Shown here one piece after another: positions 1 to 40,686 of a stretch of 61,656 nt of DNA. A program made the position numbers and the translations under genes. Under the pieces are notes generated by a model that saw nothing but the letters and a program-made list of their open reading frames with translations, ran no database searches and was not told where the DNA came from. Origin of the DNA: an uncultured Clostridia bacterium (GTDB taxonomy: Bacteria; Bacillota; Clostridia; Oscillospirales; Oscillospiraceae); the NCBI GenBank assembly GCA_946547105.1, contig CAMNOV010000003.1:1-61656 (forward strand), in the 5' to 3' direction. Numbering within the stretch: the first letter of the stretch is position 1; every line of letters starts with the position of its first letter.

Positions 1-550
1 CGGAGAGCGGCTCGTCGGCCACGATGAACTCGGGCTCCATGACGATGGAGCGGGCCAGGCCCACGCGCTGCCGCTGGCCGCCGGAGAATTCGTGCGGGTA
101 GCGGGTCAGATGCTCGGGCAGCAGGCCGACGTCCTTGACGATCTTTTCGATCTTGGCGATGCGGTCCTTGTCGTCCTTATAGAGATGGAAGTTGTACAGG
201 CCCTCGGAGATGATGTATTCGATGGTGGCGCGCTCGTTGAGCGAGGCGGCCGGGTCCTGGAAGATCATCTGGATCTTGCGGATGACCTCGCGGTCGTCCT
301 TGCGGGAGAGCTTGCCGGAGATCTTTTTGCCGTCGTAGTAGATAGCGCCGGCGGAGCAGGGATTGATCCTCACGATCGCGCGGCCGATGGTCGTCTTGCC
401 TGAGCCGGATTCGCCCACCAGGGAGAGCGTCTCGCCCTTGTAGATATCAAAGCTGACGTTATCGACGGCCTTGAAGGCCTTTTTCCCGCGCCCAAAGACG
501 ACGTCCAGATTCTGGATCGACAGCAGTACTTTCTTTTCCTTCGTATCCAT
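1..550 (-). CDS. oppF: Oligopeptide ABC transporter ATP-binding protein, OppF-like (partial, 3' end outside window)
   Basis: Nucleotide-binding subunit of a peptide-type ABC importer, acting at the inner face of the membrane. The visible 183 residues start [10 protein letters not shown]. They contain a Walker A (GESGSGKT), a Q-loop ([12 protein letters not shown]), the signature ([10 protein letters not shown]) and a Walker B running into VADEPLS at the window edge. The C-terminal part is off the left end. Walker A to Q-loop spacing is normal, unlike the neighbouring ATPase and the OppF of the second system. It follows the OppD-like gene by 12 bp on the same strand, so it is the last visible gene of the oppA-B-C-D-F operon. 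Assignment as F rather than D rests on order and on the shorter N-terminal half. Confidence 0.93.
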
Positions 551-562
551 ATGCCGTCCTCC

Positions 563-2359
563 TTAGGCTTCCAAGTCCACGTAGGTCTTGGAGATCTTCT
601 CGTGCAGGTTCTGGATGTTGGCCGGGGGCTCCACCTTCGGCGCGCGCGGATCCAGCAGCCAGGTCTTGGCGAAGTGGGTCTCGCTGATCTGGAACATGGG
701 CGGCTCCTCCTGCAGGTCGATCGCCATGGCGTACTGGCTGCGCGGAGCGAAGGCGTCGCCGACGATCTTGTTGTACAGGGAGGGCGGCGTGCCGGGGATG
801 GAGAAGAGGTCGCTGCCCTTTTCGGCCAGCTGCGGCAGAGAGCTGAGCAGAGCCCAGGTGTAGGGATGACGCGGATCATAGAAGATCTCTTCGACCGTGC
901 CGATCTCAACGATCTGGCCGCCGTAGAGCACGGCCACGCGCTCGGCCACGTTCGCCACAACGCCGAGGTCGTGGGTGATATAGACCGTGGTGAAGCCCAG
1001 CTCACGCTGCAGGTCCTTGATCAGGCGGATGATCTGCGCCTGGATCGTCACGTCCAGCGCCGTGGTCGGCTCGTCGCAGATGAGGATCTTCGGCTGGCAG
1101 GACAGCGCGATGGCGATGACGATGCGCTGGCGCATGCCGCCGGAATACTCGAAGGGATAGTCGTCGAAGCGCTTCTCCGGATCGGGGATACCGACCTTGG
1201 CCATGATGTCGAGCGTGCGCTCGCGCGCCTCGGCGTCCGAGCACTTCTGGTGCTTTTTGATGACCGTCATGATCTGCTTGCCGATGGTGATGACGGGGTT
1301 GAGCGAGGTCATCGGGTCCTGGAACACGGTGGCGATGCGGCAGCCGCGGATCTGCTGCCAGTCCTTGGTGAACTTGATCTTCGCGCAGTCGATGATCGCC
1401 GTGCCGTGGAGGACCTCGTTGGCCTCGTCATAGGACTTGAACTCGACGCGGAAGCCGATGTGGTCGAAGATCGCGTTGAGGATCTCCGGATCCTTCAGAT
1501 TCTCGCCGAGGCACATCGCGGCCTTGAAGTCCTTTTTCATCTTGGCCAGGAACTCGACCTTGTTCTTCATCGGATAGCGGCCGATGGACAGCAGGATCTC
1601 GTAACCGATGATCTTGTTGCGCTCGAGCACCTCGTCGCTCAGGCCGTAGGGATTGGCGGGGTTATCCGCCGTTTTGATCTTCTGGTCTCTGAGCGCCTTG
1701 AGCTCGGCCAGCTCCTTCTGATCGTTCTCGGCCCGGGTACGGTCGCTCTGATAGGAGGCGGCGCGGTTTTTGACAAGCTGGTCGCGCTCCTTCTCGATGC
1801 CGCTGCGCTTGTCGCGCAGGGCCTTGATCTCGCCCTCGAGCCGGGCGTACTCCGCCGCGTCGGCCTTGCGGTCGAGCGTCCAGAGATAGTTGGTCTTGTC
1901 GACGATCTGATCGCTGACTTCCTTGACGCGCAGTTTGAAATCCGCTTCCTCCTCCATGGTGATGGACTTGGACTGGCTGATGCGCTGCTTCTTGTCCTGG
2001 ATGGCCCGGAACTCGGCCGCGCCGCGCTCGAGCGGAGAGAGCCGGTTGAGCATATCGGTGGCGTAGTTGAGGATCCGGCGGTTGAGCGGCGTCAGCTTGA
2101 CGTCGGTCTTGGAGATCTCGTCGTCAGAGAAGATGATGCTGCCCTGGGGGATGAAGCCGTTGGAATCGAGCATGCCGGCGAAGGTCTTGGTCAGCACCGA
2201 TTTGCCGGAGCCGGATTCGCCCACGATGGCCAGCGCCTCGTTCTCGTAAATGTCCAGCGAGACGTTGCGGATGGCCGTGAGGATACGGCCGCGGACGTTG
2301 AACTTGACTTCAACGTTTTTCAGAGAGAGGAGAACCTTCTTTTCGTTTGTATCGCTCAT
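563..2359 (-). CDS. oppD: Oligopeptide ABC transporter ATP-binding protein OppD-like with large helical insertion
   Basis: ATPase subunit of the first Opp system, 598 residues where OppD/DppD proteins are usually about 320-360. Walker A is at 47-54, the Q-loop at about 345-349, the signature SGGMRQR at about 406-412, and Walker B ILICDEP at about 425-431. Walker A and Q-loop are separated by about 290 residues instead of roughly 45-50. The extra block (about 85-330) is rich in Lys/Glu/Arg and has coiled-coil character in its first half. The C-terminal region has the OppD/F-type end ([21 protein letters not shown], then a Cys-less PxFAPRSQYAM segment). The reading frame is open throughout, so this is an insertion and not a frameshift. 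It lies 12 bp after OppC. Substrate is unknown. Confidence 0.93.
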   Translation of the reverse strand: MSDTNEKKVLLSLKNVEVKFNVRGRILTAIRNVSLDIYENEALAIVGESGSGKSVLTKTFAGMLDSNGFIPQGSIIFSDDEISKTDVKLTPLNRRILNYATDMLNRLSPLERGAAEFRAIQDKKQRISQSKSITMEEEADFKLRVKEVSDQIVDKTNYLWTLDRKADAAEYARLEGEIKALRDKRSGIEKERDQLVKNRAASYQSDRTRAENDQKELAELKALRDQKIKTADNPANPYGLSDEVLERNKIIGYEILLSIGRYPMKNKVEFLAKMKKDFKAAMCLGENLKDPEILNAIFDHIGFRVEFKSYDEANEVLHGTAIIDCAKIKFTKDWQQIRGCRIATVFQDPMTSLNPVITIGKQIMTVIKKHQKCSDAEARERTLDIMAKVGIPDPEKRFDDYPFEYSGGMRQRIVIAIALSCQPKILICDEPTTALDVTIQAQIIRLIKDLQRELGFTTVYITHDLGVVANVAERVAVLYGGQIVEIGTVEEIFYDPRHPYTWALLSSLPQLAEKGSDLFSIPGTPPSLYNKIVGDAFAPRSQYAMAIDLQEEPPMFQISETHFAKTWLLDPRAPKVEPPANIQNLHEKISKTYVDLEA

Positions 2360-2371
2360 GATCTCTCCTCC

Positions 2372-3340
2372 TTACATATGGGTCCTGGGGTCAGAGGCGT
2401 CCGCCAGATTCTGGCCCAGCAGGTACAGCAGAATGGTGATGATCGAAGCGATGATGACCGGCGGCCAGAAGGCCCAGGGGAAGGTCATGAACGCGGTCTG
2501 GCCCTGCTGGATCATACGGCCCAGCGAGGGGACGGAGGCGCTCAGGCCGACGCCGATGAAGCTGAGGAACACTTCCATCGAAATGTAGCTCGGCAGCTCC
2601 GTGGCCAGCAGCGTCACGATCACGCTGGTGAGGAAGGGCAGGATGTTCTTGCTGATCACGCGGGGCACCGGGGTGCCGAGGCAGCGGGAGGCCAGCGAAT
2701 ACTCGCGGTCACGGATGATCATGACCTGCGTGCGGAAGAAGTAGGCGATGCCGAGCCAGCCGGTGACGGTCAGCGCGAAGACGAAGGGCCAGAAGCCGGA
2801 GCCGATGACGTAGACCAGCACCGAGATCAGCAGGATATAGGGAACGTTGGCGATGATGTTGTAGATGACCAGCATCACGGCGTCAAAGCGCTTGGAATAG
2901 CCCCAGACTGCGCCGACGATGATGCCGACGGTCATGTTGATGGCCGCGCAGATGATCGCCAGCTGCAGCGAGGTGCGGGCCGAGGACCAGATGCCGTACA
3001 TAATGGAGTTGCCGAGCTGGCCGGTGCCGAGGCACCACTTGATCGGGTTCTCGCCGTTGTAGTAGGCCATCGCCTTGGCGGGGCTGAGGTTGAAGGACTT
3101 GGCGTCCAGCACGTTTTCCATCGGATCGTAGGGCCACACCAGCGGCAGCAGGAAGGAGCCGAGGAAAATCAGCACCAGCAGAACGATCATGACGATGTTG
3201 CTCTTCTTGCGGAAGAAGACGCGGAACACCGAGCGCCAGTAGGAGTAGCGCGGGGCGGTGATCTTCTCGGAGGAGATCTCGTCGCGGTCGATAAAGCGGA
3301 AGAGGTCGGCGTTCTGAGCATTCATGTTCTTGTCACTCAT
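2372..3340 (-). CDS. oppC: Oligopeptide ABC transporter permease OppC-like
   Basis: Inner-membrane permease, 322 residues, normal length for the family. An N-terminal cytoplasmic tail of about 45 residues precedes TM1 (IVMIVLLVLIFLGSFLLPLV). An extracytoplasmic loop then leads into the BPD_transp_1 domain with five further hydrophobic segments. The EAA-type cytoplasmic loop is readable as SLASRCLGTPVPRVISKNILP, which contacts the ATPase in this family. The gene overlaps the start of its operon neighbour oppB by one base (3340) and is followed by oppD after 12 bp. It should form the channel with the enlarged OppB. Confidence 0.94.
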   Translation of the reverse strand: MSDKNMNAQNADLFRFIDRDEISSEKITAPRYSYWRSVFRVFFRKKSNIVMIVLLVLIFLGSFLLPLVWPYDPMENVLDAKSFNLSPAKAMAYYNGENPIKWCLGTGQLGNSIMYGIWSSARTSLQLAIICAAINMTVGIIVGAVWGYSKRFDAVMLVIYNIIANVPYILLISVLVYVIGSGFWPFVFALTVTGWLGIAYFFRTQVMIIRDREYSLASRCLGTPVPRVISKNILPFLTSVIVTLLATELPSYISMEVFLSFIGVGLSASVPSLGRMIQQGQTAFMTFPWAFWPPVIIASIITILLYLLGQNLADASDPRTHM

Positions 3341-4920
3341 TATCTTCCGCCTCCTTTGTCAGCATTCAGGGAAATTCTCGGGTCGTACTTGGCAAGCAGA
3401 ACGTCGCCGAGGATCAGCGAGAGGATGGACAGCGTCGTGTAGAAGACCGTGACGGCCACGATCACGCCGTTGTCGTGGGAGTTGATGGCGTTGGTCAGCA
3501 GACGGCCGACGCCGGGCACGCCGTACACCGTTTCGGTGATGATGGCGCCGGTCAGGCAGCCGAGGATGCTGGCCGGGATGCCGTGGACCAGGTAGATCAT
3601 CGCGTTCTTGGAGATGTGCGTGTTGTAGATCTCCTTCTCGCTCAGGCCCTGGGACCGGGCGAACTTGACGTAGTCGGAGTTCATCTGGTCGATCATGTAG
3701 CGGCGCATCCACTTCATCAGGCTGCCGATCTGCGGCAGAGCCAGAGAAATGGTGGGCAGCACGTAGGCCAGGATCGGGATCGCGGCGTTGGCGAACTTGT
3801 AGGGCAGCTTGAACACCGAGGTGCCGATGGCGGCGAACATGAAGATGTAGCCCAGGGACGGCACCGACATGATGAAGATGATGTAGGCGTTGCCGAGCTT
3901 GTCGGCCAGCTTGTCCTTGCGCCGGGCGTTGAGCATGCCGAGCGGCAGGCCGATCGCATAGGCGAGGAGCGTGGCGATCAGGCCGATGACGAAGGAGTTT
4001 TCGATCATGCTCAGACCGCTGCGGTTGTAGGAATAGACCGTGTACTTGTCGGGGAACTGGCTCTTTTCCACGTCGCTGATGACGCCGGTGTTATAGGTCA
4101 GGGAGTGGAAATTGATGGCCGTGTCGACGTACTGGTCGGTCCCCAGCATCAGCGGGTACTGCTGCGACTTGGATTTCAGCTCGCCGGTGGGGTTCGTGAT
4201 CACGCTGGTGATCTCCTGGCCGCGGTAGGTCGTGTAGGAGGTGCCGAGGTTCAGGTGCAGCCAGTTCTGGTGGATGAAGGGGAAGCGCCCGTCAAAGTAG
4301 AGCAGATACTTGTGCTGCGTGCCGGAGCCGACGATGGCAAAGGCACCGGAATAGGGGTCCTTTTCAAAGCGGACATAGCGGTCGGTGAGCTCCGGATCCT
4401 GGACCATGTTCTTGTTTTCGGCCGTGATGAAGCCCTTAATGTAATCCAGCAGACGCCATACCACGTTCTTCTCCTGGATGGCGATCAGATAGCCGGTACC
4501 GCCGGGCTTGGTCTTGCCGGACTTGTACTTGAGCGGCTCCAGATAGCGCAGCTTGTAGCCCTGGGTGCCGTACTTCTGGATGAATTCGTTGACGGACTCG
4601 TTGTCCTTCCAGTCGCTTTTCTGGACGGCGGCCTTGTCCGCGATGAATTCCTTGGACGTAGCGTAGTCCGCGCCGTACAGCTCCGTGTACTTGCTCTTGA
4701 TGAAGTTGGTGTAATCCACGTAGTTGAGGTATCCGTACTTGCTGTACATCGTGTACTCGTAGATCACACGGTCGTTGGCGCTCTTTTTGTTCCACACGTC
4801 GTCGGTCTGGAAGATGGAGCTGCGTTCAATGGCTGTGTAGACCAGCAGCATGACGACCATCACGACGACGAGCAGGGAGAAGAGCGAGAACAGGATGCGC
4901 TTGAGCATGTATTTTCTCAT
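3340..4920 (-). CDS. oppB: Oligopeptide ABC transporter permease OppB-like with large extracytoplasmic insertion
   Basis: Channel permease of 526 residues; OppB/DppB are typically about 305-340. TM1 is at about 8-30. Residues about 31-310 form a hydrophilic, Tyr/Lys/Asp-rich block that topology places outside the membrane. The rest is a canonical BPD_transp_1 domain with the EAA loop (DYVKFARSQGLSEKEI) and the GVPGVGRLL motif near the C terminus. In the second Opp system the OppB is of normal size and the OppC carries an insertion of similar size instead. The preceding 289 bp separate it from oppA and hold stem-loops but no gene. Confidence 0.93.
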   Translation of the reverse strand: MRKYMLKRILFSLFSLLVVVMVVMLLVYTAIERSSIFQTDDVWNKKSANDRVIYEYTMYSKYGYLNYVDYTNFIKSKYTELYGADYATSKEFIADKAAVQKSDWKDNESVNEFIQKYGTQGYKLRYLEPLKYKSGKTKPGGTGYLIAIQEKNVVWRLLDYIKGFITAENKNMVQDPELTDRYVRFEKDPYSGAFAIVGSGTQHKYLLYFDGRFPFIHQNWLHLNLGTSYTTYRGQEITSVITNPTGELKSKSQQYPLMLGTDQYVDTAINFHSLTYNTGVISDVEKSQFPDKYTVYSYNRSGLSMIENSFVIGLIATLLAYAIGLPLGMLNARRKDKLADKLGNAYIIFIMSVPSLGYIFMFAAIGTSVFKLPYKFANAAIPILAYVLPTISLALPQIGSLMKWMRRYMIDQMNSDYVKFARSQGLSEKEIYNTHISKNAMIYLVHGIPASILGCLTGAIITETVYGVPGVGRLLTNAINSHDNGVIVAVTVFYTTLSILSLILGDVLLAKYDPRISLNADKGGGR

Positions 4921-5209
4921 ATTCCGTTCCTGCCGTCAGAGCTCCGTCCGACAGCACCCTCCTTTTCCGTGCTATGCCGTAATAATGAAAGTGAAAAGCT
5001 AAGTTCCGCCTCCACGACGGATTGATCTCGCCCAGACGCCAAACAGGCGCGGCGCCGGCGCCGCCCGTTTGGAAATAGAACTTAACTTTCCACTCCGAAT
5101 ATTTAAGTGTAATTGATGATTTGCCGTTTTGATGAAACACATAGGAGGACAAAATGTCCCCCTATGTGCTTCAAACCTTAGGTTAACTTTGATGAATGCG
5201 GATTGCGGA
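4921..5209. other. oppA-oppB intergenic spacer with stem-loops
   Basis: This 289-bp non-coding spacer lies inside the minus-strand operon. Directly after the oppA stop, 5138-5151 pairs with 5155-5168 (14 bp with one mismatch, 3-nt loop). No strong U-tract follows, so it looks like an mRNA-stabilising or partial-termination hairpin. A second GC-rich dyad centred near 5055 (CCAAAC...GTTTGG ends) sits in the oppB leader. The arrangement would let oppA be expressed in excess over the membrane genes. No small ORF is convincing here. Confidence 0.6.
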
Positions 5210-7402
5210 TCAGAACAGGCCGATGACCTTGGTCATGTAGCCAGCGCCCTCACCGGCGAAGGTGTCGAGGTAGGTGCAGGGATCACCGAAGTCAGGACCC
5301 CAGCCGGAGCCGTAGAACATATCAAAGTTGCCGGCCTCGCCGTTGGAGGCACGGTAGCCGGAGGCGTAGTAGTCTTCACGAGTGGTAGCCTCGACCAGGT
5401 TGACCTGGACGTTCTCGGCACCCAGCGTGGACTCGATCACCTGCTTGTAGACCTCAGCCTGAGCGGTGATGTTGTCGTTGGCGGAGAAGTAAACCACGTC
5501 GATCTGGATCGGGTAGCTCACGAGGTCGCCCAGCTCAGCCTTGGCAGCCTCGAGGTACTCCTTGGCAGCCTCGGGGTTGAACCAGCCGTCGATCTGGTCG
5601 GCAACCTGGACCTTGCAGCCGATCTTGTCGCAGTAGTACTGGACCATTTCACCGTAGAAGGTGCCGGCGGGGAAGGTGTGGCCGTCAGCATCGGTGGTGT
5701 CAGCGGTGATGGAGACGAACTGGGGGTGCGTGTACATGTTGCGCAGGTTGGCGTACTTCAGATCCTCGCCGTTGATAACAGCGTTCTGAGCGCCCTTGTC
5801 GAAGGCGTGCTGCAGGGCCTTGCGGAAGTTCTTGTTGTTCAGAGCGGTGACGGTGTCGGCCTTCTGCTGCTCGTCCTTGGTGGAGGCAACGGTGCCGGCC
5901 TCAAGAGCGAAGGTGCCGCGGTTGAGGTTCAGGCCGCCGAAGTAAGAGGTGGAAGTGGTCTCGGTGACGTAGGCATACTTCTCAAAGTTGCCGTCTTCCT
6001 TGGCCTTGGCCATGGTGCCGTTGGACTCACGCAGAGCAACAGCGGCGTACACGCCGGCCACAGTGTCATTGTAGTAGGCGTCGGGGTTCTCACCGGCGTC
6101 GGCGATCCAGGTGATCTTGTCGAGGGTGACCTTGTCGGCATTGTAGTAGTTGGGGTTCTTCACGACAACGATCTCAGAGTCCTTCTGCAGCTTCTGGAGC
6201 AGGAACGGGCCGCTGTAGACCTGGGAAGCGACGTCCTCGGACTTACCGAAGGTGTAAGTGTTGGTGTCGGCGAAGGCAGCCTGGTACTCCTCAGCACCGT
6301 ACACACCGCCGTGAGCCAGGTAGAAGGGCTCGCAGATGGGCAGGAAGCAGGAGTAGGTCAGCATGGTCATGAAGTAGGGGGTATCAGCCTCAAGGGTGAT
6401 CTCCAGGGTCTTCTCGTCGATGGCCTTGTAGCCAACGTCGTCGAAGGAACCGCCGGCGAGGTACTCGGAAGCACCGGCGACAACACCTTCAACCAGCCAC
6501 TCCAGGCCGGCGGCGGTGTCGAGCATGTGGTGGAAGCCGGCGACGAAGTCGTTGGCGGTCACGTCGGCATACTCGGTGCCCTCGGAGGTGTACCACTTCG
6601 CACCTTCACGGATGTGGAAGGTGTAGGTCAGGCCGTCATCGGAGATTTCCCAGCTCTCGGCCATGGCAGGCTGCATGACGTTGAGGTTGTCGTACTGGAC
6701 CAGGCCGTCGACACAGTTGACGGTGATCTCGGTATCGGACTGGGAAGAGGTGTTCAGCCAGTCGATGGTGACAGGCGCGGTGGAGAAGGTGGTCTTGTAC
6801 TCGGTGGCGAGGGTGTGGCCCTTCTCGGTCAGGTAAGCGGCGGGATCGTACTCGCCCTCACCGGCGACAGCCTTGCCCCACAGATCGAACAGGTCGTTGC
6901 GCTCCTCGGGAGTGAGGAAGTCGTCAGCGGTGACGACCATGCCGAACAGACGGTCGTCGTCATTGCCCCACTGCACGTAAGGAATGGTACGGGGAGCAAT
7001 GCGGCTGATCTGATAGGTACCGCCCTGGGTGGTGGTGGGGATCATGACGGCAGAGTCGAGCAGGTAGGCCTCAGCCTGAGCATACAGGACAAAGCGATCA
7101 TTGTTGTTGTCAGCGGCCTTGGCGGCGGCCATCAGGGCCTCGTACTCGCCGAGAGCACCCTCGTAGATCTCCTCGTCGTCGCCGCGGACATACTTGCCGT
7201 CGGCGTCGAGCTCACTGACGTAGCCCTGATAGCCTTCCGGCTCGGCGGGCTGCTCGGCAGGCTGCTCGGCGGGCTGCTCGGCAGGCTGCTCGGCCGGAGT
7301 CTCGTCAACGACGGGCTCGGCGGGAGCGGGAGTGGTGTTGCCGCAGGCAGCCAGGCTGAGAATCATCATCAGCGCCAGAAGCATTGCAACAAACTTCTTC
7401 AT
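5210..7402 (-). CDS. oppA: Peptide-type ABC transporter substrate-binding lipoprotein, apparently circularly permuted
   Basis: Secreted solute-binding protein, 730 residues, first gene of the operon. It has a signal peptide with lipobox LAAC (Cys20), so it should be lipid-anchored. An AEQP-repeat linker covers about 23-57 and is encoded by a 12-bp tandem repeat. Residues about 58-157 (DRFVLYAQAEAYLLDSAVMIP...) resemble the segment that normally closes family-5 binding proteins. The usual N-terminal part begins only at about 208-270 (AMAESWEISDDGLTYTFHIR). The protein then stops soon after DMFYGSGWGPDFGDPCTYLD, where relatives continue for about 80-100 residues. I infer circular permutation rather than truncation. 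RBS AAGGAG precedes the ATG. Confidence 0.92.
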   Translation of the reverse strand: MKKFVAMLLALMMILSLAACGNTTPAPAEPVVDETPAEQPAEQPAEQPAEQPAEPEGYQGYVSELDADGKYVRGDDEEIYEGALGEYEALMAAAKAADNNNDRFVLYAQAEAYLLDSAVMIPTTTQGGTYQISRIAPRTIPYVQWGNDDDRLFGMVVTADDFLTPEERNDLFDLWGKAVAGEGEYDPAAYLTEKGHTLATEYKTTFSTAPVTIDWLNTSSQSDTEITVNCVDGLVQYDNLNVMQPAMAESWEISDDGLTYTFHIREGAKWYTSEGTEYADVTANDFVAGFHHMLDTAAGLEWLVEGVVAGASEYLAGGSFDDVGYKAIDEKTLEITLEADTPYFMTMLTYSCFLPICEPFYLAHGGVYGAEEYQAAFADTNTYTFGKSEDVASQVYSGPFLLQKLQKDSEIVVVKNPNYYNADKVTLDKITWIADAGENPDAYYNDTVAGVYAAVALRESNGTMAKAKEDGNFEKYAYVTETTSTSYFGGLNLNRGTFALEAGTVASTKDEQQKADTVTALNNKNFRKALQHAFDKGAQNAVINGEDLKYANLRNMYTHPQFVSITADTTDADGHTFPAGTFYGEMVQYYCDKIGCKVQVADQIDGWFNPEAAKEYLEAAKAELGDLVSYPIQIDVVYFSANDNITAQAEVYKQVIESTLGAENVQVNLVEATTREDYYASGYRASNGEAGNFDMFYGSGWGPDFGDPCTYLDTFAGEGAGYMTKVIGLF

Positions 7403-7543
7403 TTTGTGTCCTCCTTATAATTTTGATTGGTATTTTTGAACAAGCCCCTTGAGGCATAGTTCACGGATAAAGACGCGTCTTTCCGCGCTGCCGGACGGGA
7501 GAAAAAGTGAATATACTTTTTTCCCTTTTTATTACACTAAAGG

Positions 7544-7572
7544 ATTTTATCATAGAACGCAGCAAAGTGCAA
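7544..7572 (-). promoter_or_regulatory. Putative sigma-A promoter of the first opp operon
   Basis: Read on the minus strand: TTGCAC (7567-7572), 17 bp, TAAAAT (7544-7549). This leaves a leader of about 135 nt before the oppA ATG. The -35 is weak and the -10 good. The surrounding stretch is AT-rich compared with the genome. The 7403-7793 gap otherwise holds no gene I can support. Confidence 0.45.
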
Positions 7573-7793
7573 GCATTTTAAATCGCAAAAGTATCATCTT
7601 GATGAAAGCGCGACAAAAAAACATGGCCGCATTTTGCCGTTTTTGTTAATATTTTTGTAAAAATTGCCGGATCCCACGGTAAGGTATGCATTCGTCGCCC
7701 TCTGCCGGCCGATTTTGAGAATAAATATTCAAAAGGAGGAAATACTGAGTCCAGAAGGAGCGTTTTCGCGTTCCCGCTGGAAAGGAGAAGCAA

Positions 7794-7967
7794 ATGACGA
7801 CCAAAGAACTCTTGTATGTGGACGACGCGCTCGGCCATTGCCGGACGCTGGCCACGCAGTTTGAAAACGCGGCCAACCAGCTCCAGGACGCGGCGCTGCG
7901 CGTCCAGGTCCAGCAGATGGCCAACCGGCACCGCGAGATCTACCGCCGGTTTTACGAACTTGTGTGA
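7794..7967 (+). CDS. Small protein next to spore coat gene, likely spore-associated
   Basis: A 57-residue protein starting MTTKELLYVDD and ending RRFYELV, preceded by a good RBS (GGAAAGGAGAAG, 7 nt before ATG). It looks like a helical, Gln/Ala-rich polypeptide (NAANQLQDAALRVQVQQ) with a C-terminal HREIYRRFYELV helix. It lies 11 bp upstream of a CotF-type gene on the same strand, so it is probably co-expressed during sporulation. I do not recognise the family by name. Small helical proteins paired with CotF-like proteins are common in spore-forming Clostridia (general knowledge). Composition and codon use match the neighbours. Confidence 0.72.
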   Translation: MTTKELLYVDDALGHCRTLATQFENAANQLQDAALRVQVQQMANRHREIYRRFYELV

Positions 7968-7978
7968 GGTGAAGAACG

Positions 7979-8230
7979 ATGGATGATCGATGCATCATGG
8001 AAGGGCTGCTCCTGGACGCCAAGGGCCTGTGCGATCTGTATATGCACGGCGCCGTCGAATCCGGCACGGCCAATGTCCGCCAGGCCTTTTCGGCCGCCTT
8101 TGACAGCGCCCTGGCGATGGGCGACTCGATCTATCAGCAGATGAGCGCCAAGGGCTGGTATCAGCCCGAGGCCGCGCCGCAGCAGCAGCTGCAGCAGCTC
8201 CGGCAGAAATTCCCGCCCGCCTGCTGCTGA
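7979..8230 (+). CDS. CotF-like spore coat protein
   Basis: An 83-residue protein (MDDRCIMEGLLLDAKG...). The pattern matches the Coat_F domain: an N-terminal helix (LLLDAKGLCDLYMHGAVES), a central FSAAFDSALAMGDSIYQQM segment, and the hallmark KGWYQPEAAPQQQLQQL near the end. It terminates in a Cys-Cys pair. The length is near that of a single-domain CotF relative. It should be a structural component of the endospore coat, made in the mother cell. It follows the 57-residue gene by 11 bp and is closed by a strong terminator. I could not identify a sporulation-sigma promoter upstream with confidence. Confidence 0.85.
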   Translation: MDDRCIMEGLLLDAKGLCDLYMHGAVESGTANVRQAFSAAFDSALAMGDSIYQQMSAKGWYQPEAAPQQQLQQLRQKFPPACC

Positions 8231-38100: not shown

Positions 38101-40686
38101 TTAATAGGTCAGCTCGCCGCCCTCGGAGGCAACGTAGGCAGCCCACTCGGCGTCATTGTAGTTGTACTTCATGTACTGGATGCCGCCGCGGCCCATGATG
38201 GGATTGTACTCGTCGACCACGTAGAAGACCTGCTTGGAGAGCAGAGCGGCAGAAGCGTCCTGCAGCATGGGCAGGTAGTCGTAAGTGCCGAGGATGACGG
38301 TCTCCAGAGCGGCCAGGATGTCCAGACGGGTCTCGACGTCGGCAATGCCGTCGCCGAAGCAGTAATCCTTGCCGTTGTCGGCCGTGACGGTGGCACCGTT
38401 GAGGGCGTCGGACCATCTGTGGATGTCCATGGTGATCTCTTCACCGGCAACCTCGAGGGTCATGTCGACTTCGTCGGAGACGAACCACTGGGCGTCATAC
38501 TGGTAGGAAGGATTGACGTACAGGTCGGTCAGGCTGAACGGGTTGAGCGCGGAACCGGACCAGCCGCCCAGAACGGTGTCGGCCAGGCCAGCCTTGATCT
38601 TGTTGGACCAGTCGTTGCCGTAAGGCGCGGACTTGGCGAACTTGATCTTGCCGTCGAACGGAGTGCCGACAGTGACCTCGGCCATCTTCTCGTTGAGGTA
38701 GTCGATGGTGCGGGTCATGAAGTCGGAGTCGGAGCTCATGGAGTACTCCAGGGTGATGGTCTGATCGCTGATGCCGTCGCCGTCGGTGTCGGTGATGAAG
38801 CCGGCCTCGATGCCTTCGGCAAAGGCAGCGGCGAACAGCTCCTTGGCGGTCTCGGGATCGTAACCGGTGATGGAATCGACAGCAGCGTCAAGGTCGCCGC
38901 CGAAGTCGTCAACGTTCACGGAGTAGAACGCGCACAGGGCCTTCTTGGCCTGATCGGTGTCGCGGTAGCGGGCGCCGGTCTCGGGATCGTAGATGTAGGC
39001 GTTGCCGATGATGCCGTAGCCGCCGGAGCGGGACGGGGAGACGGTGGAAGCAAAGAGCTCCTTGTCGTAGGTGACGGCGATGGCCTTGCGGAAGTTGAGG
39101 TTGGTCAGCATCTGCAGGTCGGCGGTGGCGGTGTCGAAGTCAGCGGCAGCTTCGCGGTTCTCAATGGCCTGCTTGTAGCCGTTGAGGATCAGGAAGAAGA
39201 TGGTCTCGGAAGGAGTGAAGTAGACGTAGTCGGAGTTGCGGTAGGTGGCAAAGTCGGAGGCCTGCAGGCCATAGCCCATCAGCTCGCCCTTGAGGAACAT
39301 GAGCTTGCGGGTCTCAGCTTCGGCAACGACCTCGGTCTCGATGATGTCGGTCTGGTACATCGGGTAGGTCTCGCCGTCCTCAGGATCGACGTAGACGTGC
39401 TTGCCGTCGTTCCAGCCGTACCAGTTCTCGTTCTTCTCGAACTTCATGAACTTGTCGGCCTGGTAGGTGACGAGCTTGTAGGGGCCGTAGGAAGAGGTGG
39501 TCTCCACGCTGGTGTTGTAGGTGGAGCTCCAGACGCCGTTGGACTCGGAGAGGTTGGCCTCGTAGAGGTCTTCCTTCACGATCCAGTTGCTGGACAGGTT
39601 GTACAGCAGGTTGAAGCCGGCCAGGCTCTTGCCGAAGACCAGGGTGATCTGGTAGTCGCCGCTCTTGAAGCAGCCAACGGTGCCTTCGTAATCGACAACG
39701 GGCATATCAACGCCGGTGACGAAGTAGTTGGGCAGATCGTCCGCCGTCTCGCCCCAGGCTTCGTTGCCGGTGGTGACGGGGGTGAAGAGCTCGAGGGTCT
39801 CATCGTTGAGGGGGATGAGGCCGTTCTCGTCCATCATCTCAACCAGGGCTTCCCAGTTGGTCACGTCGAAGTAAGCGTCGCCGTAAGCTTCCACGTAATC
39901 CTTCAGGGTGTCGCCGCCGGTCCAGTCGAGGGCGAAGTCAAGGCCGATGAACATCTTCTCGCCATTGGGGCCGACGTAGTTGCCGTCTTCGCCCTTGGTG
40001 AGGTCAGCCATGGTGTAGCCCGCGCCGACGCCGTTATCGGTGTAGCTGGTGTGGCCGGCGTTGGCATAAGCCTCAGCGCCCGCGATGCACAGGTCGCCGG
40101 CATAGTAGTCGGTGGCGCGGTAGTTGAGCAGGTCAGGATTGAGCAGCTGCTTCATGGAGTAGACATAGGTGTCGGCATTGATGGGGGTGCCATCTTCCCA
40201 GACAGCGTCGGGGTTGAGGTCGATGGTGTAGGCGTAGCCGGCGGTGGCGGACTCGGGGATGTTGAACTCCGGGTGCTCGGCCTTGATCTGCTCGGTCACG
40301 TCAACAGGCTCGGAAGCGGCCATCTCGGGGACGATCACATAGCCGGTGTAGGGATCCTTGCCCTCGACCGGGTGCAGCTCGTCGTTGAACCAGAAGCTGT
40401 ACAGACCAACGCGCAGGAAGTCGGCGGGATAGGCGTCATCCGTGGTCTGATAGGTGTGGGGGTTCCAGTTGGTCGCCATGGTGGACACGGAATCCTGATA
40501 CGTATAGGTAGCAGGAGCCGCGGGCTCCTCGGACGGCTGCTCGGCAGGGGCTTCGGTGGGCTGCTCGGCAGGGGCTTCGGCGGGCTGTTCGGCAGGAGCC
40601 GACGTATTGCCGCCGCAGGCAGCCAGAGCGAACACCATGGCCAGGGCCAGCACGAGGGCCAGGAGCTTGGACAGATTCTTGCTCAT
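38101..40686 (-). CDS. oppA: Peptide-type ABC transporter substrate-binding lipoprotein
   Basis: 861 residues, large for family 5 (usually 500-620). The signal peptide has lipobox LAAC (Cys24), followed by a Pro/Glu/Ala linker (AEQPAEAPAEQP pattern) to about residue 58. Domain order is conventional: the N-terminal lobe has TYTYQDSVSTMATNWNPHTYQ, and the C-terminal part has ETVILGTYDYLPMLQDASA and ends KYNYNDAEWAAYVASEGG. A Ca-binding-like loop DTDGDGISD sits near 630-640. The extra length is spread through the middle. First gene of the complete second Opp operon. RBS AGGAGG lies 8 bp upstream. Confidence 0.94.
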   Translation of the reverse strand: MSKNLSKLLALVLALAMVFALAACGGNTSAPAEQPAEAPAEQPTEAPAEQPSEEPAAPATYTYQDSVSTMATNWNPHTYQTTDDAYPADFLRVGLYSFWFNDELHPVEGKDPYTGYVIVPEMAASEPVDVTEQIKAEHPEFNIPESATAGYAYTIDLNPDAVWEDGTPINADTYVYSMKQLLNPDLLNYRATDYYAGDLCIAGAEAYANAGHTSYTDNGVGAGYTMADLTKGEDGNYVGPNGEKMFIGLDFALDWTGGDTLKDYVEAYGDAYFDVTNWEALVEMMDENGLIPLNDETLELFTPVTTGNEAWGETADDLPNYFVTGVDMPVVDYEGTVGCFKSGDYQITLVFGKSLAGFNLLYNLSSNWIVKEDLYEANLSESNGVWSSTYNTSVETTSSYGPYKLVTYQADKFMKFEKNENWYGWNDGKHVYVDPEDGETYPMYQTDIIETEVVAEAETRKLMFLKGELMGYGLQASDFATYRNSDYVYFTPSETIFFLILNGYKQAIENREAAADFDTATADLQMLTNLNFRKAIAVTYDKELFASTVSPSRSGGYGIIGNAYIYDPETGARYRDTDQAKKALCAFYSVNVDDFGGDLDAAVDSITGYDPETAKELFAAAFAEGIEAGFITDTDGDGISDQTITLEYSMSSDSDFMTRTIDYLNEKMAEVTVGTPFDGKIKFAKSAPYGNDWSNKIKAGLADTVLGGWSGSALNPFSLTDLYVNPSYQYDAQWFVSDEVDMTLEVAGEEITMDIHRWSDALNGATVTADNGKDYCFGDGIADVETRLDILAALETVILGTYDYLPMLQDASAALLSKQVFYVVDEYNPIMGRGGIQYMKYNYNDAEWAAYVASEGGELTY

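Follow-up and report, generated by a model that had tools for sequence, protein, structure and literature searches.

The 61,656-nucleotide stretch of DNA analysed here (the window) carries a gene whose product, judged from sequence comparisons, is very probably (we put the probability at roughly 0.93) an oligopeptide-binding lipoprotein of the AmiA type (family 5, cluster C) that has undergone natural circular permutation. Canonical AmiA/OppA proteins have the segment order N-M-C, whereas in the window protein the order is C-N-M: the old ends appear to be joined, the chain is cut elsewhere and nothing is lost. The layout of the gene and its neighbours is summarized in table 1.

Table 1. Features of the probable permuted binding-protein gene and of the operon to which it belongs (positions in the window; residues are those of the encoded protein).
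Feature	Position	Strand	Basis
Probable permuted SBP_bac_5 lipoprotein gene, order C-N-M	5210..7402	-	ORF of 730 aa
Lipoprotein signal peptide, residues 1-20, LAAC, Cys20	7343..7402	-	sequence; low pLDDT in model
Flexible AEQP-repeat linker, residues 21-62	7217..7342	-	pLDDT <50 at residues 13-55
Moved ex-C-terminal segment, residues 63-182	6857..7216	-	phmmer, segment profile, rotation test; AliD domain boundaries from excerpts of PMC11192437
Connector from old C terminus to old N terminus, residues 183-200	6803..6856	-	gap between segment profiles
Ex-N-terminal and middle part, residues 201-730	5213..6802	-	
GWGPD, residues 700-704, counterpart of AliB W500/D503	5291..5305	-	PDB-sequence alignment; role from excerpts of PMC11192437
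New C terminus GYMTKVIGLF, residues 721-730	5213..5242	-	stop position compared over 80 loci
OppB/AmiC-like permease, 526 aa, long form	3340..4920	-	PF00528
OppC permease, 322 aa	2372..3340	-	PF00528, PF12911
OppD ATPase, 598 aa, with ~220-residue insert	563..2359	-	PF00005 in two stretches; NF043079
OppD insert, ~220 residues, between the two ABC_tran stretches	1445-2107	-	
OppF-like ATPase, incomplete at the end of the window	1..550	-	name from position and ABC motifs

The swapped order is apparent from comparisons with proteins of known structure. When PDB sequences were searched with phmmer, residues 202-716 of the window protein aligned with residues 16-498 of the AmiA chain (8a42; 273 bits) and residues 79-182 with residues 519-625 of the same chain (26 bits). 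The same swapped two-piece alignment was obtained for AliC and AliB among the alignments listed, and AliD also matched in two stretches, with the alignment given for the first stretch only. A profile of the moved segment, searched against 177,635 distinct PDB sequences, yielded five matches at E<=1, comprising AliC (9.2e-14), AmiA (2.0e-9), AliB (2.4e-8) and AliD (2.3e-7), every one at the C-terminal end, and DppE (E 0.0035). The original prediction, that residues ~58-157 read like the closing segment of family-5 binding proteins, is thus borne out.

A reference profile built from 27 canonical relatives (model length 575) likewise matches the native chain in two domains, with model positions 1-462 on residues 201-720 (349.7 bits) and positions 454-563 on residues 62-167 (46.8 bits); the two pieces join with little overlap and no gap, and therefore nothing has visibly been lost or duplicated. 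Rejoining the chain in the canonical order (residues 208-730 followed by 58-207), in line with a check proposed together with the original prediction, produces a single domain spanning model positions 12-563 of 575 with a score of 400.5 bits. The gain for the window protein is thus ~51 bits over the best native domain, whereas shuffling the segment gains next to nothing (best domain 345-353 bits in all 20 controls). Rotating at residue 150 comes close to this score (397.5 bits), because most of the segment then still sits behind the remaining chain, and rotations at residues 100, 300, 400, 500 and 600 leave the match split. The rotated sequence outscores the native one in 86 of 88 permuted proteins, by a mean of 52 bits, and one of the two proteins showing no gain (L075) is cut by a contig end.

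Structure prediction, the other check proposed, points in the same direction. AlphaFold2, given alignments of permuted sequences only, modelled the whole chain as one confident fold (pLDDT 88.7, pTM 0.84) with low values in the signal and linker. The moved segment is confident within this model and loses its confidence when folded alone (pTM 0.38), with blocks near residues 122-153 dropping from 79-96 to 35-52. Nor does the latter part of the chain look complete by itself, as anticipated, since residues 198-730 of the model match only residues 33-533 of the 627-residue AmiA chain. Superposed in sequence order on AmiA (8a42), the model reaches a TM-score of 0.74 by target. The structural matches reported span model residues from ~184 on, so that the moved segment lies outside them; no protein with the type I (cluster B) sugar-binding fold occurs among the 50 matches listed. 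The sequence comparisons demonstrate, with support from the model, that the permuted chain should still rebuild the complete three-domain AmiA/OppA-like fold.

The proposed natural permutant, with its anchor now attached through the former C-terminal segment, is thus upheld by the swapped alignments, the rotation gain and the model, and the lipoprotein signal and AEQP-repeat linker are found in the ORF as described. Some details require revision. The moved segment extends over residues 62-182, with the C-terminal helix (165-179) included, rather than over 58-157; it comprises the end of Domain III, the last strands of Domain I and this helix. The old N-terminal part does come later in the chain but begins at ~198-201, not at ~208, and relatives do extend beyond the stop of the window protein, by ~105-125 residues and not by 80-100. 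Finally, Domain I (lobe 1) carries the old termini, in agreement with the expectation that the termini belong to lobe I, but the new ones map to Domain III, i.e. lobe 2.

This last point bears on the membrane tether. According to the excerpts of PMC11192437 used here, AliD Domain I consists of residues 29-63, 191-296 and 583-617, Domain II of 64-190 and Domain III (lobe 2) of 297-582, with the C-terminal helix at 622-652. In canonical proteins the tether is attached to lobe 1, where Domain I begins. The last residue of the window protein aligns to AliD 526, within Domain III, and the lipid tether should therefore shift from lobe 1 to lobe 2. Alignment to AliD thus indicates that the tether probably acts on lobe 2 rather than lobe 1. 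A simple rule, which sorts some rows wrongly (a lipobox is present in L096, and L068, scored as having one, resembles a plain signal), finds a lipobox in 69 of 92 permuted frames and a signal lacking it in 17 of 92, so that a tether is usual among these proteins but does not occur in all of them. In L040, L050, L062, L109 and others the moved segment follows almost directly behind a signal peptide that has no lipobox. The leader and repeat linker of the window gene (7226-7402, minus strand) share ~31-72% identity with the leaders of many frames elsewhere in the genus, and leaders look as if they had been swapped between genes.

The permuted form is not peculiar to the window but occurs in a family of bacteria from the rumen and gut. 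A scan of genome contigs (118 encoding stretches, 80 loci kept, nearly all from metagenome-assembled genomes, MAGs) recovered 80 loci from other genomes, all collinear with the window's C-N-M protein; their titles name Oscillospiraceae, Lachnospiraceae, Erysipelotrichaceae, Sphaerochaetaceae and others, and at least two genomes have two loci each. The stop falls exactly at residue 730 in 66 of the 80 loci and at most two residues off in eight, while six run off the contig; each of the 74 complete ends is hence found no more than two residues from the same position. Segment profiles applied to the frames of 163 loci gave 98 C-N-M, two cut C-N and 27 N-M-C calls, together with one N-C lacking an M call, one M-C-N and 11 lacking a C call; in these counts the 80 loci all fall within C-N-M/C-N and the window's own locus is counted several times. 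Over 92 distinct permuted frames, the two segment profiles are separated by 22-35 residues (median 22). With a profile built across the junction, matches to both of its sides are listed for 5 of 391 genomes of the class and for 12 of 200 genomes of the family, the window's genome being included in each count. Some genomes carry a canonical paralogue too, e.g. G085 (L181 permuted, L217 canonical). The window itself encodes, at 38506-40671 (minus strand), a further SBP_bac_5 lipoprotein, in canonical order; its frame has 874 residues and matches the profile at positions 3-61 and 66-364 of 368, with a long stretch between the two matches.

Several loci depart from the common architecture. L094 (108-2691) has the permuted core behind a different N-terminal region of ~200 residues with no evident lipobox, and opp genes are absent from the 6 kb downstream; the same 6 kb are devoid of opp genes in L101 (frame 3867-8004). 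Both L101 and L095 carry, fused in front of the permuted core, what we take to be SLH-like repeats, accompanied in L101 by presumably leucine-rich-like repeats.

Could the gene nevertheless encode a normal binding protein that has lost its C-terminal end and acquired an N-terminal domain of other origin, so that residues 58-182 resemble a C-terminal segment by chance? Pfam would suggest as much, as it reports a single SBP_bac_5 stretch (PF00496, residues 243-720, 161.7 bits against a curated cut-off of 32.4) and flags no anomaly, so that such genes are easily mistaken for truncated ones. However, the hits of the segment profile to the C-terminal ends of AliC and AmiA, the gain on rotation that shuffled segments fail to reproduce, and the failure of the segment to fold confidently alone contradict this, and we regard its probability as negligible. 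The same holds for an assembly or binning artefact that swapped pieces of the gene. The genome of the window, in 110 contigs and 85.56% complete, might invite such a suspicion, but the recurrence of this order at 80 loci outside the window's genome, with at least two genomes carrying two loci each, and the occurrence of the junction among class and family genomes contradict a chimera as the source of the C-N-M form; the order is therefore no assembly error.

Within an oligopeptide ABC operon, the permuted gene is the one that encodes the binding protein. The genes oppBCD lie 3' of it in 66 of the 80 loci, oppB alone in three, and oppC with oppD in one; of the ten loci where opp genes are missing, eight have <900 bases downstream, and the other two are L094 and L101. 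The OppD protein has 582-629 residues in four permuted operons, 348-372 in six canonical ones and 366 in the M-C-N one. Searching for its insert with the window sequence alone in 398 genomes of the phylum gave three matches (one weak, the window included), and a 16-row profile gave five (one weak) across 296 genomes from the class to which G1064, the genome carrying L056, belongs. The six strong carriers (the window, G085, G1064 and the three genomes of L207-L209) all possess a C-N-M gene, i.e. the permuted form accompanies the long insert-bearing OppD in the strong cases examined. That the insert is exclusive to permuted systems must be rejected, as the NCBIfam model of mycoplasma OppD (NF043079) spans it, covering residues 10-593 of the window OppD with 689 bits (cut-off 740). 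The mycoplasma OppA model (NF043077), unlike the window protein, is canonical (N at ~35-355, M at 668-737 and C at 778-862 of 896), and so the long OppD may predate the permutation.

A tree of all three segments comprises 56 rows (28 C-N-M, 27 N-M-C and one M-C-N, taken from 88, 27 and one, respectively), and two long end branches occur among its canonical rows. The C-N-M proteins make up one side of a single branch (SH-aLRT 99; a quick method, no bootstrap), hence one clade, in whose ancestor the permutation probably arose once. The labels of the MAGs suggest a later spread among Clostridia, Erysipelotrichaceae and Sphaerochaetaceae. On the same tree, L054 and L074 (SH-aLRT 96) pair a protein from a Sphaerochaetaceae-labelled MAG with one from Clostridia, which hints at mis-binning of the MAG or at a gene passed between bacteria in the gut. 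The permutation may have originated by tandem duplication, followed by trimming and accompanied by the gain of a new leader. No duplication intermediate with C at both ends was seen among the frames of the 163 loci, and no remnants of a duplication were found in 191 flanks (the best E values, 0.65 and 0.86, represent chance).

The M-C-N protein, L013 / L179 5439-7556 (G014:C143), branches beside the canonical L132 (99), away from the C-N-M clade, and would thus represent a second, independent circular permutation; it comes from one MAG only, and an artefact is unlikely. Another canonical protein, L210, is closer to it, sharing 61% identity in two pieces (L013 residues 378-704 on L210 59-353 and 46-364 on 349-663) that leave no gap, as in a seamless rotation. 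The genes oppB, oppC and oppD, together with another ATPase gene, lie downstream of the L013 gene. Chained, and hence rough, alignments place the cut in L013 around AliD 315, near where Domain III begins according to the excerpts of PMC11192437. When L013 was searched against 98 genomes related to G014 and 240 from the family of G299, no further M-C-N genes appeared among the matches listed.

How would the permuted protein work? The ex-C-terminal segment of ~120 residues sits behind the lipid anchor and linker, the connector of ~20 residues bridges the old C-terminus to the old N-terminus, and the chain stops at the cut. The resulting receptor, complete, bilobed and tethered via lobe 2 and a disordered linker, would close on peptides in the usual Venus-flytrap manner, with W701 and D704 gripping the amino end of the peptide. 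These two residues show no variation across 54 sequences and align to GWGPD of AliB, where W500 and D503 hold the amino end of the peptide (excerpts of PMC11192437). Captured peptides would be passed to OppBC, driven by the ATPases encoded directly downstream. The conserved residues and the operon make peptide binding and delivery to the Opp permease the most likely function.

A variation on the same theme is a domain-swapped dimer, in which one chain would lend its moved segment to complete the lobe of another. AliC has been crystallised as a domain-swapped dimer (8qlh, by its title; excerpts of PMC11192437), but there whole lobes are exchanged; the single-chain model, confident outside the signal and linker, and the short connector of near-fixed length argue against such an arrangement, which we consider improbable. 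A different matter is whether the tether position has any significance. The permutation might be a neutral frozen accident, an idea compatible with the permutant explanation itself and denying only its adaptive reading, and we regard the chances of this as even. It accords with the relatives that lack a lipobox or bear other leaders, and with a linker that is long and disordered in the model; against it speak the pairing of the permuted form with the distinctive long OppD and the fact that the new termini of the second permutation, too, seem to fall in Domain III. It is, in turn, conceivable, though we propose it tentatively and think it somewhat doubtful, that the AmiA fold was rotated independently at least twice (C-N-M and M-C-N), with new termini each time in Domain III, and that selection thereby favoured a tether on lobe 2 in place of lobe 1, in the C-N-M case as part of a transporter with an insert-bearing OppD.

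Few natural circular permutations of ABC binding proteins were found documented in the open-licence PMC literature. The pneumococcal AmiA, AliB, AliC and AliD (excerpts of PMC11192437) are homologous to the window protein over the whole fold and share with it the W-x-x-D peptide motif, the extra C-terminal helix and an Opp-type permease with ATPases, but they are N-M-C proteins tethered at the start of Domain I, unlike the C-N-M window protein with its predicted tether on Domain III. The glucose-binding TpMglB-2 (Tp0684) is also a natural permutant of a membrane-tethered ABC binding protein, and the excerpted text of PMC4990184 presents its topology as possibly an adaptation to anchoring. However, it has the type I/cluster B sugar-binding fold, and its moved part is poorly conserved with canonical relatives in sequence, so that its authors allow for an origin from a different gene (PMC4990184, same excerpts), whereas the homology of the moved part is clear in the window protein. 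Circular permutation has been described among glycine-betaine-binding proteins as well, where, according to the excerpts of PMC2395249, it was found by structure at <24% identity; neither operon nor tether is mentioned in these excerpts. No circularly permuted family 5 or oligopeptide-binding protein was found in searches of the open-licence PMC literature. Permuted ABC binding proteins are thus known from other classes already, and their occurrence in the oligopeptide-binding class is apparently new within the same scope.

What distinguishes the present case is that the permutation is clear at the sequence level, in genomes labelled as belonging to two phyla, some of which also harbour canonical paralogues. 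The second event, with a canonical relative 61% identical, permits direct tests of how permutations arise, and if both rotations are independent, all three rotations of the three segments occur in nature. The system also permits testing whether the position of the tether matters for peptide import.
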